DNA of 64,000 nucleotides from Haloferax sulfurifontis ATCC BAA-897 (GTDB lineage Archaea > Halobacteriota > Halobacteria > Halobacteriales > Haloferacaceae): NCBI RefSeq assembly GCF_000337835.1, contig NZ_AOLM01000011.1, positions 1-64,000 on the forward strand. The letters run 5' to 3'. Shown here piece after piece: positions 2,560-24,091 of this stretch. Position numbers and translations under genes: made by a program. The number at the start of each line of letters is the position of its first letter. Within the stretch, counting starts at the first letter, position 1. Below the pieces are notes generated by a model that made no database searches, was not told the origin of the DNA, and worked only from the letters and a program-made list of their open reading frames with translations.

Positions 2560-3357
2560 CTACTCCCCGATGAGTCCGCGAATCCGCTCGACGTATTCCG
2601 CGAACTCGCTTTCGGTCCGCTCGCGCGGGCGGTCGATATCGACCGAGACGATTTCGCGGACGCGGCCGGGGTTGGCGGCCATGACGACCACGCGGTCGGC
2701 GAGCGTGACCGCCTCCTCCACGTCGTGGGTGACGAACAGCACCGTCTTGTCCGTCTCCGCCCAGATATCGAGCAGTTCGCCGTGGAGCATGTCGCGGGTC
2801 TGGGCGTCGACCGCGCCGAACGGCTCGTCCATGAGGAGGAGTTCGGGGTCGACCGCGAGCGCGCGGGCGATGCCGACGCGCTGTTTCATCCCGCCGGACA
2901 GCTCTTTGGGGTAGGCGTCGGCGAAGCCGTCGAGGCCGACGAGTTCGAGCATCTCCGTCACGCGTTCCGAGCGCGCCGGTTCCTCGACGCCCTGTTCTTC
3001 GAGCCCGAAGGCGACGTTCTCGCTGACGGTTCGCCACGGGAACAGCACGTACTCCTGGAACACCATCCCGCGGTCGGTGCCGGGGCCGGTGACGGGCGAG
3101 CCGTCGAGGGTGACCGCGCCCGTCGTCGCGTCTTCGAGCCCGGCGATGACGCGGAACAGCGTCGTCTTGCCGCACCCCGAGGGGCCGACGATACAGGCGA
3201 ACTCGCCGTCCGCGACGGCGAACTCCACGCCGGAGAGGGCTTCGACCGTCCGCCGGTCGGACGCGTAGGTCTTGCCGAGCGAGTCGACGCTGACCTTCGC
3301 GGCCTCGTCGATGCCCGTCGCGGCCGCGGTCGTGTCCGCGTTCGCGTCGTCGCTCAT
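2560..3357 (-). CDS. ABC transporter ATP-binding protein, nitrate/sulfonate/taurine type
   Basis: A 265-residue ABC ATPase with Walker A GPSGCGKT (about 58-65), signature LSGGMKQR (about 153-160), Walker B LLLMDEP (about 173-179) and the H-loop FVTHDVEEA. These match the SsuB/TauB/NrtC group that drives import of organosulfonates, taurine, nitrate or related anions. Its ATG overlaps the stop of the permease gene by four bases (ATGA), so it is the last gene of a three-gene operon: binding protein, permease, ATPase. The N-terminal ~20 residues are an acidic, alanine-rich lead-in. The transported substrate cannot be told from the sequence. Confidence 0.9.
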   Translation of the reverse strand: MSDDANADTTAAATGIDEAAKVSVDSLGKTYASDRRTVEALSGVEFAVADGEFACIVGPSGCGKTTLFRVIAGLEDATTGAVTLDGSPVTGPGTDRGMVFQEYVLFPWRTVSENVAFGLEEQGVEEPARSERVTEMLELVGLDGFADAYPKELSGGMKQRVGIARALAVDPELLLMDEPFGAVDAQTRDMLHGELLDIWAETDKTVLFVTHDVEEAVTLADRVVVMAANPGRVREIVSVDIDRPRERTESEFAEYVERIRGLIGE

Positions 3358-19157: not shown

Positions 19158-19264
19158 GTCCGACAGGGGGGCGTCGGCGACCCTAAATGCGTCGTCTGCG
19201 GCGACGACACGCGTCCGGCGTCCCCGCCGCGGGCGTTTTACCCGCAGGGCGCGAAGCCGGAGAT

Positions 19265-19969
19265 ATGTGCGGCCGCTACACGCTGTTTACCCCGCCCGAG
19301 GAACTCGAAACGCGGTTCGACGCGACGCCGACGCGCCCGCTTTCGGCGCGGTACAACTGCGCGCCCGGCCAGGAACTCCCGGTCGTGACCAACGAAGCGG
19401 ACGACGAGTTCCGCTTCCTCAAGTGGGGGCTCGTCCCCTCGTGGGCCGACAGCGCCAGCGTCGGCAACGACCGAATCAACGCCCGCGCGGAGACCGTCCG
19501 GGAGAAGCGGAGTTTCGCCGACGCCTACGAGGCCCGCCGGTGTCTCGTTCCCTCGGACGGCTTCTACGAGTGGGTCGACCGCGGCGGGCGAAAACAGCCC
19601 TACCGCGTCGCCTTCGAGGATGACCGCCCGTTCGCCATGGCCGGCCTCTGGGAGCGGTGGACGCCATCGACGAAACAGACCGGTCTCGGCGACTTCGGAA
19701 GCGGCGGCCCCTCGCGCGAACAGGAGCCGCTTGAGACGTTCACCGTCGTCACGACCGAGCCGAACGACCTCATCTCCGAGCTCCATCACCGGATGGCCGT
19801 CGTCCTCGACCCCGAGGAAGAAGAGACGTGGCTCCACGGCGACCCCGACGAGGCGGCGGCGCTCCTCGACACCTACCCCGACGACGAACTCGCGGCCTAC
19901 CCCGTCTCGACGCGGGTGAACAGCCCCGCCAACGACGGCCCCGAACTGATAGAGCGAGTCGAGGCGTAG
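19265..19969 (+). CDS. SRAP/HMCES-family abasic-site DNA-protein crosslink protein
   Basis: A 234-residue protein whose second residue is the catalytic cysteine (MCGRYTLF), exposed after removal of Met1. Other SRAP landmarks follow: YNCAPGQELPVV, RFLKWGLVPSWA, NARAETV, CLVPSDGFYEW and a late HHRMAV histidine. HMCES/YedK proteins crosslink covalently to abasic sites in single-stranded DNA to shield them during replication. The conserved Met-Cys start fixes the ATG at 19265 rather than the upstream in-frame ATG at 19187. Confidence 0.92.
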   Translation: MCGRYTLFTPPEELETRFDATPTRPLSARYNCAPGQELPVVTNEADDEFRFLKWGLVPSWADSASVGNDRINARAETVREKRSFADAYEARRCLVPSDGFYEWVDRGGRKQPYRVAFEDDRPFAMAGLWERWTPSTKQTGLGDFGSGGPSREQEPLETFTVVTTEPNDLISELHHRMAVVLDPEEEETWLHGDPDEAAALLDTYPDDELAAYPVSTRVNSPANDGPELIERVEA

Positions 19970-21183
19970 CGCGTCGGGTGAAATCGCCGGCGTTCGACCG
20001 TCTCGGCGACTTTGACGCGAATCGGCTGGGTTCGACAGGACCTCGAATTTCCGAACTCGGTCGAGCCCGAGAACCGAGATTGTGTATAGCGATATGCGGT
20101 ATACAAGTCTCGAATCGGACAGTCGGGCAAGCCGACAGAGACCGAAACGCTCGGAGAATCAGCGATTGAGTCGAGCTAACGCGGAAAATCGGAGTTCAAA
20201 GAGTCGATAGTGTCGGCCGTCAACGCCGCAAGCGACAGCCACGTCGCGCTCGCGTCTCGGGTGGTTCGTATCGCAGTCGGAAGCACAGGTAGTTGGGGGG
20301 CACGGCCACGACTCGGTTGTGCAGACGGAGTGCGGCGTCGCATTCGAGATTCGGGGCGGTCCGCTCGACCGAGTCACCAGCCGAGAGATGGTTCGCTCGA
20401 ACGGGTCGTCGCCGCAGGACGAGCGAGTCGTCGAATCCGGCCGTGAGCGAGAGCCGAAACCCCGGATTCACGCGACCCCATCAGGACGGCCACAGCGCGC
20501 TTGAGCGCCGCTTCACCTGAGATGAGACCATGCCCGTGTTACTGTGCTCACCGCGAAGACGAGGGCTGTGAAGGCGTCAAAAGAGACCGAATCGAGCCGG
20601 CAAGGACCTCGGTTGGGTTCGTCTTCGAGTGGGTTCGAAACGGCGTCACCCGAGCGGTTGCGTGTTCGAATCAGACAACACTCACTGGAGTTCTTCGAGA
20701 TAACACCCACATAATGACAGACGAAATCAGTTCAAAAAGAAGTCCCGTCCGACGACATATATTCACAGGAAAATATCGGATATAATCGGTGAAAATACCG
20801 GTTTCGCTCTAGTTGAAATATAGTCGTTCGAGAGAACACGAATGGCGCGTCGCCCCGCGAGTATATTTCTGAGAAAATAGGCAGAAGATATATTCGGAAT
20901 AATTCCATTTACAGTAGAGGTAATAAAACAGAGGCAGAACCACCGCATCCAGATTGTATAATAGTTCAGTAAAATCGGGGATGAAATAACGAAACCCGTG
21001 TAAGTGGTTCTTCCATGCGCTACTCGGAGGGTAAATGACGAGAGAAGTGCCATCCAAAAATTGGTTGTCGTCACAGAAAAGAGACGGTACTGTGCAAAAT
21101 CAACCTACTAGAAGCAACAGAATACTGGCCGATTCTCAGATTCGCTCGAAACGCCCGAAATCGGCGTTCTCCGGGAGAATTTA
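19970..21183. other. 1.2-kb gene-poor region, AT-rich in its second half
   Basis: No gene is supported here. From 19970 to about 20700 composition is moderate and only weak open frames appear on either strand. From about 20700 the sequence becomes clearly AT-rich, with many TATA-like runs. Two overlapping reverse-strand frames in it (20763-21074 and 20809-21057) encode hydrophobic peptides without acidic bias and are probably chance or remnants. A short inverted repeat CGGT-N6-ACCG occurs near 20790-20805. The region leads into the repeat cluster and regulator/recombinase pair. Confidence 0.45.
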
Positions 21184-21308
21184 TTATCCTGAATAGTGCA
21201 TGTAAACTACCGAAAACACGATTGCAGTATTCAGGATAAGCGTATTTAGCCGCCGAAAATCTGCATGTACTGCTCAGGATAACTTCTCTTATTCTGAACT
21301 GTGCCGGT
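21184..21308. repeat. Four-copy inverted/direct repeat cluster before the regulator-recombinase pair
   Basis: The element TTATCCTGAATAGTGCA occurs in plus orientation at 21184-21200, in minus orientation at 21223-21239 (one mismatch), in minus orientation at 21262-21282 (TTATCCTGAGCAGTACATGC) and in plus orientation at 21289-21308 (TTATTCTGAACTGTGC, more diverged). The first two form a 17-base inverted repeat with a 22-base spacer. The last two stand back to back (TCAGGATAA-N6-TTATTCTGA), an arm-spacer-arm layout like a tyrosine-recombinase core site. The cluster ends 33 bases before the ATG at 21342, so it overlaps the promoter region. Confidence 0.75.
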
Positions 21309-21341
21309 AGATTGAATATCGATCCCCGTGTCGACCCGTTC

Positions 21342-21788
21342 ATGAGCGATGAGGTCGACCGCGCGACGGTGCAAACCTACCTCCCGGCCCACCAGAAGGC
21401 CATCTGGAAGGACCACGCGGACCGACTCGGGATGAGTCAGAGCGAATTTGTCAGAACCATGGTACAGGCCGGTCGGCGCGATTTCGATGTCCCTCCGAGA
21501 GGCGATGAAGCGACCACAACCCCCGGGGTCGAAGGGGTGGAAACGGGGCTCCAGAACGACGGTTCAAATCAGGACGGTGGGAGCGAAAATAACGGTGAGT
21601 TCGAGGCTCGAATCGTCGAGGCGCTCGCGACCGATTCGCACCGGTCGTGGGACGACCTCGTCGCGGCGCTGACCGACGACATCGAAGACCGCCTCGAATC
21701 GACGCTTCAGAAGTTGCAATCGAGGGGCCGAGTCGTGTACAGCGGGCGACACGGCGGCTACACGCTGGCGGAGCGCGATGGCCGCTGA
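21342..21788 (+). CDS. DUF5805-like ribbon-helix-helix / winged-helix DNA-binding protein
   Basis: A 148-residue protein. Residues ~5-45 (RATVQTYLPAHQKAIWKDHA, then GMSQSEFVRTMVQAGRR) have the strand-helix-helix pattern of ribbon-helix-helix DNA-binding proteins. A polar linker follows, then residues ~90-145 resemble a small winged helix (SWDDLVAAL, then RVVYSGRHGGYTL). This arrangement recalls the haloarchaeal DUF5805 family. Its 3' end overlaps the recombinase start by 11 bases, so they are probably co-translated. The repeat cluster immediately upstream is a natural binding target. An upstream TTG at 21312 is a less likely start. Confidence 0.75.
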   Translation: MSDEVDRATVQTYLPAHQKAIWKDHADRLGMSQSEFVRTMVQAGRRDFDVPPRGDEATTTPGVEGVETGLQNDGSNQDGGSENNGEFEARIVEALATDSHRSWDDLVAALTDDIEDRLESTLQKLQSRGRVVYSGRHGGYTLAERDGR

Positions 21789-22827
21789 GCGACCCGCCGA
21801 CGCGGAGGACCCGGTCGGCTACTTCCTACAGGATATGACCTATCACGGGAAGACCGACCGGACCCGCGCCGCCTACGAGCGCGTCCTCCGGGCGTTCGAG
21901 TCGTTCCTCGGCGACCCCTCGCGGAACCCCTCCGGGACCGCCCGTTCGGTCGACGACGCGACCCACCGCGACTGCATGGCGTGGATACACACCCTGCGAA
22001 ACCGGGATGTCGCGCCGAGCACGGTGGCGACGTACGCCTCCTACCTCCATCGGTTTTACGCCTACATGGCGCAGGTCGGCGCGTTCGACTCCAACCCGAT
22101 GAGCCTCGTGATGGAGGAGATGGACGAGCGCATCGACACCAACCCCGCCCGACGGGAGCTCTCGGTCCCGCAGATGCGGGGGTTCGTCCGCGAAATCGCC
22201 CATCCGCTGGACCACGCGCTGGTGGTCACCCTCCTCAAGACCGGGATGCGCGTCGGCGAACTGTGCAACCTCGACCTTCGAGACGTGTCGCTGGCGGCGG
22301 ATACACCATTGGCCGGTGTATCGACCCGCGCCGCGCTCGACGGTCGCGGGCCGTCGATGTACGTCGCCGCCGACCCGAGCGTCGGGAGCATCACCAACGG
22401 CGAGGAGCGAACCGCCTCGAACAAGCGGAAGCGGTCGACGGTCGTCCCCGTCGACGACGAACTGGAAGACGTTCTGCTTCGCTGGCTGGCGGTTCGGCCC
22501 GATTCGCCGTCTCCGGCCGAACCGCTTTTCGTCGGTACCGCCTCGGGGTGGGGTCAGCGACTGGACCCCGACGCCGTCCACCACGTCGTCACCGCTCACG
22601 CCGCCGCCGCCGGCTGGTACCGGGCGGGCGGCGACCGCGAGGAAAACGTCACGCCGCACTACTTCAGGCACTTCTTTACGACCCACCTCCGGGACCGCAC
22701 CGGCGACCGCGGCATCGTCAAGTACCTCCGCGGCGACGTTGCCGGCGATATCATCGACACGTACACCCACAACTGGGGCGACAGAGTGCGCGAAACGTAC
22801 GAATCGAACATTTACTCGCTCCGCTGA
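21778..22827 (+). CDS. Tyrosine recombinase/integrase (XerC/D-like)
   Basis: A 349-residue site-specific recombinase. Residues ~10-110 form a SAM-like N-terminal core-binding domain (TRAAYERVLRAFESFLG). The catalytic domain shows the first arginine in TGMRVGELCNL (about R158), the HYFRHFFTTHL box (His-x-x-Arg) and a nucleophilic tyrosine in IIDTYTHNW near residue 330. It overlaps the upstream regulator gene, and the gene-poor AT-rich region precedes both. No plasmid, capsid or conjugation genes are next to it, so this is either a stable chromosomal Xer-type pair or the remnant of an integrated element. Confidence 0.88.
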   Translation: MAAERPADAEDPVGYFLQDMTYHGKTDRTRAAYERVLRAFESFLGDPSRNPSGTARSVDDATHRDCMAWIHTLRNRDVAPSTVATYASYLHRFYAYMAQVGAFDSNPMSLVMEEMDERIDTNPARRELSVPQMRGFVREIAHPLDHALVVTLLKTGMRVGELCNLDLRDVSLAADTPLAGVSTRAALDGRGPSMYVAADPSVGSITNGEERTASNKRKRSTVVPVDDELEDVLLRWLAVRPDSPSPAEPLFVGTASGWGQRLDPDAVHHVVTAHAAAAGWYRAGGDREENVTPHYFRHFFTTHLRDRTGDRGIVKYLRGDVAGDIIDTYTHNWGDRVRETYESNIYSLR

Positions 22828-22898
22828 GGAGCGCGCTCGCTGTTCGAAACGCGACTTGTAAACTGTATCTCGCTATATCGAATTTGTGGGTGAGCGAC

Positions 22899-23282
22899 CT
22901 ATCGCTTGACGCCCGTCGCCTCGATTTGGACGGCGGCGTCGTTCGGGAGTTCGGAGACGCCGACGACGGTCATCGCCGGCCGGCGGGCGGCGAAGTAGGC
23001 GTCGTAGGCCGACTCGATGGCGTCGATTCGGTCGAGGTCCGTCGTGTAGACCGTGGTTCGGAGCACGTCGTCCAAGTCGAGCCCCGAGCGTTCGACGGCC
23101 GCTTCGACGCGTTCGAGCGCGCTCATGGTCTGGCTCTCGACCGACTGGTGGTCGTCGGCCGTCGCTTCCGGTTCGGGGTACTGCGCGTCGAAGAAGACGA
23201 GTTGCAGGTTCCGCTTTCGGGCGCCGTAGCCGGCGGTCGCCTTGAAGTGGTCGCTCTCGTATCGGACCGCATCGCCGTTCAT
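22899..23282 (-). CDS. RidA/YjgF-family protein (enamine/imine deaminase-like)
   Basis: A 127-residue Rid-family protein. The C-terminal stretch ARRPAMTVVGVSELPNDAAVQIEA matches the family signature in position, though in RidA proper the active-site arginine is followed by a different pattern, so this may be a Rid2-7 type. RidA hydrolyses reactive enamines formed by PLP enzymes and works as a homotrimer in the cytoplasm. It converges with the recombinase gene and is divergent from the HTH regulator. Confidence in the superfamily is high, in the exact activity low. Confidence 0.82.
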   Translation of the reverse strand: MNGDAVRYESDHFKATAGYGARKRNLQLVFFDAQYPEPEATADDHQSVESQTMSALERVEAAVERSGLDLDDVLRTTVYTTDLDRIDAIESAYDAYFAARRPAMTVVGVSELPNDAAVQIEATGVKR

Positions 23283-23406
23283 ACTTGTTCCTCCGTGGAA
23301 TTCGTTCGACTCTGGTTCACGGTCGTACTACCCCGCGAGCGGCCATCGCCGTGTCGCCAGCATGTACTAATCCACACAGACGTTCGTCGTGTCCAATAGA
23401 GCGAGG

Positions 23407-23424
23407 CTCAAACGGGCGCTTGAC
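23407..23424. promoter_or_regulatory. Imperfect palindrome upstream of the HTH regulator (putative operator)
   Basis: CTCAAACGGGCGCTTGAC matches the perfect palindrome at 24075-24092 at 15 of 18 positions. It lies directly upstream of a TTTATC element (23438-23443) that is ~30 bases before the regulator's GTG start, a position typical for archaeal operators. Confidence 0.5.
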
Positions 23425-23470
23425 TCATACCGGCCTCTTTATCGGCGAAGCGAGAACGTCGGCCGAGACC

Positions 23471-24091
23471 GTGAGTTCGTTGCTCCCGCTGAAACCCGCC
23501 GCCGCATCGGTTCGAGACCGGGCCCTGACGCCGCTTCTCGTCGAACTCGACGACGACGACGCGGACGAGGTCCTGTCGGCGCTCTCGTCGGCCACCGCGA
23601 GGCGGCTCCTCGCCGCCGTCTACGACGACCCGCGCCCCGCCTCCGAACTGGCCGACACACTCGACACGACGCTCCAGACCGTCGGCTACCACGTCGAGCG
23701 ACTGGTCGACGCCGAGTTGATAGAGCCCGTGGCGACGTGGGTCTCCGCGCAGGGCCGCGAGATGACCGTCTACGGCCCGACCCGCTCCGCCGTCGTTCTC
23801 TTCGCGGGCGCGGAGCGAACCGAATCGAAGCTCTCGTCGGGCCTTCGGACGCTCGTCACCGGCGTCGGTGTCACGCTGGTCGGAAGCGTCGCCGTGCAGG
23901 CGCTGTGGACCGCGCGACAGCCGCAGGTCAGGTACGCCGCGCCGGCTCCGGCCGCTCCCGTCCCCGAACCGGGCGTCGCGGAGTTCGTCTCCGCCTTCCT
24001 CGCCGGTCCCGGCGCGCTCGCGTTCCTCGTCGGCGTCGTCCTCGCCGTCCTCGTGAGCCTCGGCGCGGTCTGGACTCAAACGCGCGTTTGA
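23471..24091 (+). CDS. Winged-helix transcriptional regulator (ArsR-like) with C-terminal membrane segments
   Basis: A 206-residue protein. Residues ~25-90 form a winged HTH (DEVLSALSSATARRLLAAVYDD, then TTLQTVGYHVERLVDAELIE) of the ArsR-like type common in haloarchaea. The second half has two hydrophobic stretches (LVTGVGVTLVGSVAVQAL and GALAFLVGVVLAVLVSLG), so the regulator is probably membrane-attached. The GTG at 23471 is chosen because TTTATC at 23438-23443 lies ~30 bases upstream. Matching palindromes flank the gene, one before the promoter and one at its stop codon, suggesting autoregulation and control of the lipoprotein gene that follows. Confidence 0.78.
   Translation: MSSLLPLKPAAASVRDRALTPLLVELDDDDADEVLSALSSATARRLLAAVYDDPRPASELADTLDTTLQTVGYHVERLVDAELIEPVATWVSAQGREMTVYGPTRSAVVLFAGAERTESKLSSGLRTLVTGVGVTLVGSVAVQALWTARQPQVRYAAPAPAAPVPEPGVAEFVSAFLAGPGALAFLVGVVLAVLVSLGAVWTQTRV

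Follow-up and report, generated by a model that had tools for sequence, protein, structure and literature searches.

A compound dif-like site beside a Xer-like recombinase gene pair is probably the chromosomal dif of Haloferax and its relatives in the Halobacteriales

Introduction

The closest described systems are the XerA/dif pairs of archaea, reported from Pyrococcus abyssi, Thermoplasma acidophilum and the Sulfolobales. In the published passages that cover them, a single chromosomal tyrosine recombinase acts at one site per chromosome, made of inverted arms of ~11 nt around a 6-nt centre, and in Thermococcales this site lies on the terminus side. The haloarchaeal locus described here shares all of these traits. 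In contrast to archaeal XerA, its recombinase scores below the XerA_Arch cut-off and carries an Asp instead of the second His/Trp; its gene overlaps one for a ribbon-helix-helix (RHH)/winged-helix protein, and accessory half-sites stand at fixed distances from the core. The location of the site relative to the gene also sets it apart: predicted Sulfolobales sites lie near xerA while euryarchaeal sites do not, according to the main text of PMC2958812 (which contains no word beginning with 'halo'), whereas the haloarchaeal site adjoins its recombinase gene at the terminus. The same source reports that P. abyssi XerA needs no accessory protein in vitro, and FtsK is described as lacking in archaea in the relevant passage of PMC8371274.

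For haloarchaea themselves, the account in PMC7776575 gives H. volcanii 12 xerC/D-like genes and leaves their role and the dif sites open. Smyshlyaev et al. 2021 (PMC8138268) described the 'Arch1' simple tyrosine recombinases as Halobacteria-specific and Xer-like, with a short insertion, and suggested that they may compensate for Xer. Likened to that published description, the recombinase studied here probably belongs to Arch1; the Arch1 passages mention neither a target site nor a partner protein. A literature search, with subscription papers and preprints outside its reach, brought up no account of either a haloarchaeal dif site or DUF5805.

Outside archaea, the cer and psi compound resolution sites combine, as here, a core with upstream accessory sequences, possibly as a topological filter. 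Their accessory proteins are ArgR and PepA, and their accessory DNA differs from the core arms. In the haloarchaeal locus, by contrast, the accessory sites resemble core half-sites and the candidate partner is the RHH/winged-helix protein. XerS/difSL of streptococci and lactococci is another instance of a recombinase linked to its own site as a module, yet difSL, as given in PMC5357621, spans 31 bp, 11 bp of them in the centre, whereas the site reported here has a 6-bp centre, accessory half-sites and a partner gene.

Results

We analysed a window of 64,000 nucleotides (positions 1 to 64,000 of contig NZ_AOLM01000011.1 of Haloferax sulfurifontis ATCC BAA-897), in which a 17-base element is found in four copies within 21184-21305. 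A first-pass annotation of the sequence had stated that the element occurs four times, in the orientation order + - - +. The order is as described; the count is approximate, because copies 3 and 4 are degenerate. Copy 1 (21184-21200, + strand) is exact and copy 2 (21223-21239, - strand) has 1 mismatch, and together they form, as the annotation had reported, an inverted repeat of 17 bases whose halves are 22 bases apart. Copies 3 (21266-21282, - strand, 3 mismatches) and 4 (21289-21305, + strand, 4 mismatches) stand back to back around the 6-base spacer CTTCTC at 21283-21288, again as claimed, and make up a Xer-type core, TCAGGATAA-CTTCTC-TTATTCTGA, with copy 3 as left half-site, copy 4 as right half-site and the spacer as the presumed strand-exchange region. 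Measured from this spacer, the inner TTAT end of copy 1 lies at -99 and the inner end of copy 2 at -43, and we refer to these two copies as accessory half-sites.

The cluster precedes two genes on the + strand. The first (21342-21788) encodes a 148-aa protein with an N-terminal RHH part and a C-terminal, winged-helix-like DUF5805 part, a candidate accessory or regulatory partner; the second (21778-22827) encodes a Xer-like tyrosine recombinase of 349 aa. Conservation supports ATG 21342 as the start of the RHH gene, in agreement with the 33 bases given earlier between cluster and start, and the overlap of the two reading frames is real, with the recombinase starting at 21778.

No copy of the element at ≤3 mismatches is expected by chance (expected count 0.00 in 100 shuffles of the window), and a search of the organism's own assembly (3.81 Mb, 29 contigs) at this threshold gave 3 places only, all in the cluster. 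The pattern TCAGGATAA-N4-10-TTAT has a single occurrence in the assembly. An Rfam search of 20000-24000 gave no match. A promoter and terminator scan around the genes, of a bacterial type unsuited to archaeal promoters, gave nothing above shuffles. A chance origin of the repeats was weighed and ranked low.

Downstream of the core, a conserved block on the + strand (21302-21318) consists of T-R-G, ~13 bp outside the core, followed by AGATTGAA. Blocks like TGGGATAGATTGAAG lie 3' of the core throughout the order, and their distance from it hardly varies. The T-R-G part is mirrored to the left of the core, with symmetric positions 14 and 16 that had no part in core picking. This block may be an outer contact, an RHH site, a promoter element, or a protein site and promoter at once.

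Comparison across Halobacteriales showed that a symmetric core is kept in front of nearly all orthologous gene pairs of the order; the lack of conservation that the first-pass annotation would have taken as a refutation was not observed. In almost every genus a core of the form NNNGATAA-N6-TTATCNNN, or a lineage variant of it (GGATTA-N6-TAATCC and ATCTTA-N6-TAAGAT, for example), precedes the RHH gene, and the 6-bp spacing of the centre is kept throughout the aligned loci. Using one fixed score on windows 20-100 bp upstream of the gene, a palindrome score ≥23 was reached in 121/150 upstream windows, compared to 3.9% of shuffles and 4/150 control windows taken farther upstream. In a set of 64 representatives, 73.8% of cells agree between the two arms over the nine paired positions; shuffling the partners lowers this to 61.6 ± 1.4%, and sliding the arms to 35-39%. 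Judged by these alignments, the core arms co-vary, remaining mirror images of each other while their sequence diverges across lineages. Since cores were picked with a score that rewards symmetry, the symmetry of the inner nine positions is partly selected, a bias that the shuffled, slid and farther-upstream controls address, and the outer arm positions are the cleaner test. There, positions 14 and 16, which lie outside core picking, show more left-right symmetry than chance would give, both over the full set of 146 loci and in the 64 representatives, while positions 11, 12 and 15 do not.

Core placement needed some intervention, and this counts against a dif reading: 19 loci were re-fitted, 10 by a fixed motif rule and 9 by hand where automatic placement had missed or misplaced the site (L013-L017, L019, L021, L022 and L043). 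The core alignment leaves out L072 and L098, which had no clear core, and of the 40 loci from other families, L134 and L143 gave no core. A 110-bp search over 80 loci from named genomes missed the site in 8; it lies farther out in L172, several others are sub-threshold variants, and none is clear in L202, L205 and L208.

In most loci ~50-70 bp separate the core from the RHH start. In 7 loci of genera g8 and g26 (one of the g26 loci being Halogeometricum pallidum) the same site is found 167-721 bp from the RHH gene; the distances are 167-327 bp except in L016, where it is 721 bp. In the latter, a 215-aa protein that looks, by its motif, like an HNH nuclease is encoded between core and RHH gene (333-1059 of that locus, from genome G047).

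We then took the Haloferax positions of the accessory copies, -43 and -99, as a prediction for all other loci, scoring the top three upstream matches to each locus's own arms. Within the family but outside Haloferax, 30/97 loci have copy 2 exactly at -43, where the null gives a mean of 1.1 and a maximum of 4; in other families 8/38 loci do (null mean 0.27), and a tolerance of 1-2 bases leaves this count at 8/38 (null mean 1.1). Copy 1 is found exactly at -99 in 14/97 non-Haloferax loci of the family (null mean 0.5, max 3), rising to 26/97 for -97 to -100 (null mean 2.0); in other families the exact position is occupied in 2/38 loci, and 11/38 have a match at -97 to -100, that is, with the 1-2-base tolerance (null mean 0.85). 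These half-sites track lineage-specific sequence, such as ATTTGTG/CACAAATAA in g25. In g8 and g26 copy 2 lies at ~-33 in a by-eye reading, one helical turn closer to the core. Accessory copies at the predicted places were not found in every genus, an observation that speaks against a dif reading.

Sites per genome were counted with R1, a profile built from the core plus its right flank, in 117 genomes of the order. It matched at E ≤0.5 in 106/117, and 91/117 each hold one strong place (E ≤0.005), the remainder being weak or without a match; an additional strong row, in G013, reads this palindrome from the opposite strand. In 66/67 genomes for which a DUF5805 place is listed, the strong site lies ≤700 bp upstream of DUF5805 on the same strand, and in the remaining one (G121) the same palindrome is read on the opposite strand.

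The position of the site on the chromosome was measured relative to Cdc6-1, located by its distinctive split match and a protein search, which we take to be the initiator of oriC1. The site lies opposite this initiator: as a fraction of chromosome length, the two are 0.278-0.5 apart in 71/71 chromosomes (mean 0.43), all of them therefore beyond 0.25. Averaged by genus the mean is 0.446 over 36 genera. The distribution of distances is far from uniform (KS p = 1.5e-20). The other 8 of 79 genomes were left out: G109 has no initiator match, G241 has its initiator on another contig, and six are without known length; eleven of the chromosome lengths are rounded. G153 and G142 have two initiator-like copies, and the alternative copy gives ~0.35 and ~0.31. 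Two points count against a dif reading here. In some genera the site is at 0.28-0.39 of the chromosome and so not exactly opposite the initiator, and haloarchaea often have several origins, the measured distances being those to oriC1 only.

As a control we used the gene for SRAP (SOS response associated peptidase). Unlinked copies are evenly spread (mean 0.251, KS p = 0.72, 37 copies), whereas the site has a mean of 0.446 in the same genomes, with none below 0.25; 18 copies ≤20 kb from the site had been set apart as linked. The gene radA lies near the origin (mean 0.08) and is for this reason a contrast rather than a neutral control, SRAP being the better one. In Haloferax a SRAP gene is itself a neighbour of the site, at 19256-19969 of the window, and SRAP lies ≤20 kb from the site in 18 of 58 genomes searched.

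The recombinase matches Pfam SAM-like and Phage_integrase, both over cut-off, and its closest named relative, at 97%, is that of H. denitrificans. It is matched in 117/119 genomes of the family and in 104/104 of good quality; a strong ortholog (E <1e-100) is present in 116/119, with G114 weak, and additional hits within these genomes are for the most part distant paralogs. Sequence comparison with solved structures places XerA 5hxy and 4a8e among its nearest relatives, fold comparison 4a8e, and an AlphaFold model (mean pLDDT 86.5) matches the Brujita integrase, P. abyssi Xer (4a8e), Cre and T. acidophilum XerA (5hxy). The active site of tyrosine recombinases reads R-K-H-R-(H/W)-Y. Arg158, Lys216, His294, Arg297 and Tyr329 are invariant in 43/43 aligned recombinases, and presumably take the corresponding catalytic roles, by alignment to the XerD motif. 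The usual His/Trp position is Asp320 in 43/43, which counts against a dif reading, as does the score of 110.4 bits against NCBI XerA_Arch (NF040815), below its 220-bit cut-off. Among 59 genomes of the order, none has a canonical XerA over the NCBI cut-off.

The RHH gene lies directly upstream of the recombinase gene, on the same strand, in 110/110 loci of the family; these were drawn from the 116 strong orthologs, leaving out six on short contigs (G003, G012, G041, G054, G069 and G082). The same holds directly upstream in 40/40 loci of other families (mostly one per genus, from the DUF5805 genome listing of the order) and in 80/80 loci from named genomes. The pair belongs to the core genome, with DUF5805 present in 229/243 genomes of the order, and in a sample of 120 genomes of the phylum the 19 with a match are all Halobacteriales. 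A model of the RHH protein (mean pLDDT 72.6) has two RHH-type N-terminal helices and a C-terminal helix-helix-strand-strand unit. Fold matches are weak throughout, with VapB, TacA, Arc and CdbA for the N-terminal part and MntR, Z-alpha and others for the C-terminal part; the best of them all reaches E 0.056, none being below 0.05. The Pfam NikA-like match is unconvincing, and a PDB sequence search with the family returned weak unrelated matches only. The description 'RHH plus winged helix' draws on these predicted helices and strands, the unconvincing NikA-like match and the weak fold matches.

Discussion

The first-pass annotation had left open whether the cluster is an operator, a recombination site or both, and had proposed neither dif nor chromosome dimer resolution. 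Half-site geometry, co-varying arms, single copy, terminus location and order-wide conservation strongly support a recombination site. Going by sequence comparison, it is very likely that the cluster is the chromosomal dif of Haloferax, that its counterparts are the dif sites of the Halobacteriales, and that the gene overlapping the RHH frame codes for their cognate, single-protein Xer. A pair of recombinase protomers would occupy the mirrored half-sites at 21266-21282 and 21289-21305. After a crossover has joined two chromosomes into a dimer, its two copies of the core would synapse, and exchange of strands at the 6-bp centre (21283-21288) would resolve it. The upstream half-sites at -43 and -99 and the RHH/winged-helix protein probably form an accessory complex, which we infer would control synapsis or the direction of the reaction, the job of FtsK in bacteria. 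Binding at the accessory half-sites may also regulate the operon.

A further step is plausible while falling short of probable: that RHH/winged-helix protein and recombinase form a two-protein cassette that works without FtsK, in which the RHH/winged-helix protein and the outlying half-sites set the timing or topology of Xer and so replace FtsK, and that this cassette goes with the replicon.

The alternative to this part of the explanation keeps the dif assignment and makes the RHH/winged-helix protein a transcriptional regulator only, with the upstream half-sites serving repression. The lone half-sites resemble the core arms and could recruit the same repressor, and the in vitro independence of P. 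abyssi XerA from accessory proteins (as reported in PMC2958812) fits too. What speaks against it is that the upstream half-sites keep to the core and not to the gene, still preceding the distant core of g8 and g26 (at ~-33 by eye), and that the pair is never separated in 110 + 40 + 80 loci. We regard it as possible, leaning to doubtful.

It could also be argued that the repeats are operators and nothing else, autoregulatory sites of the RHH protein or the recombinase at which no strands are exchanged. RHH proteins commonly repress their own operons, and the placement of most cores, ~50-70 bp before the RHH start and near the likely place of the promoter, makes an operator role possible. This cannot be the whole story, as the earlier annotation would have allowed, because the same site keeps its form 167-721 bp away in 7 loci of two genera, in one of them with the HNH-like gene between. 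An operator would also leave unexplained the 6-bp Xer spacing and a location opposite oriC1 in 71/71 chromosomes when an unlinked gene is evenly spread. We consider this reading quite improbable. Least probable of these readings is that the cluster is the attachment site of an integrated mobile element with the two genes as its integrase and regulator: such elements often carry a tyrosine recombinase together with a small DNA-binding protein, and the gene on the Natrinema megaplasmid is annotated 'integrase', but the pair is not patchy (recombinase ortholog in 116/119 genomes, DUF5805 in 229/243), the viral collection holds no relative of the RHH protein, phages offer no good relative of the recombinase (only a 38% match at 28% cover), and there is one strong site per genome rather than two flanking copies.

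With the dif assignment, one gene pair and one site per genome are named at the pole opposite oriC1, in genetically tractable organisms, and because the site adjoins the gene for its enzyme, the question of haloarchaeal dimer resolution is now directly testable. The analysis also puts forward a candidate for the FtsK-like control that archaea are missing, the site would give a terminus landmark for multi-origin polyploid chromosomes, and DUF5805 would gain a likely role on the strength of these comparisons.

Relatives of DUF5805 are also carried by plasmids, on three records. The 987-kb Natrinema and 1.16-Mb Halomarina plasmids each have the whole cassette, with RHH gene, recombinase gene and core. 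In Halomarina PSR21 the chromosome (L201) and the 1.16-Mb megaplasmid each have their own cassette, with the 6-bp centre GGCTCA in the former and GGGCAC in the latter, a difference that, if the cassette goes with the replicon, would keep the two replicons from fusing. The 149-kb plasmid of Halobaculum halophilum (L241) encodes a DUF5805 protein at 2956-3342 without a recombinase nearby.

Two chromosomal loci are unusual in their arrangement. At 600-3164 of L146 (genome G231), an intact RHH-recombinase pair with its compound site stands back to back with a broken second copy facing the opposite way, which looks like a cassette replacement at the terminus. At 25-3271 of L098 (genome G103), two divergent RHH-recombinase pairs share one common intergenic region with two dif-like cores, and their recombinases are 64% and 50% identical to that of the window.
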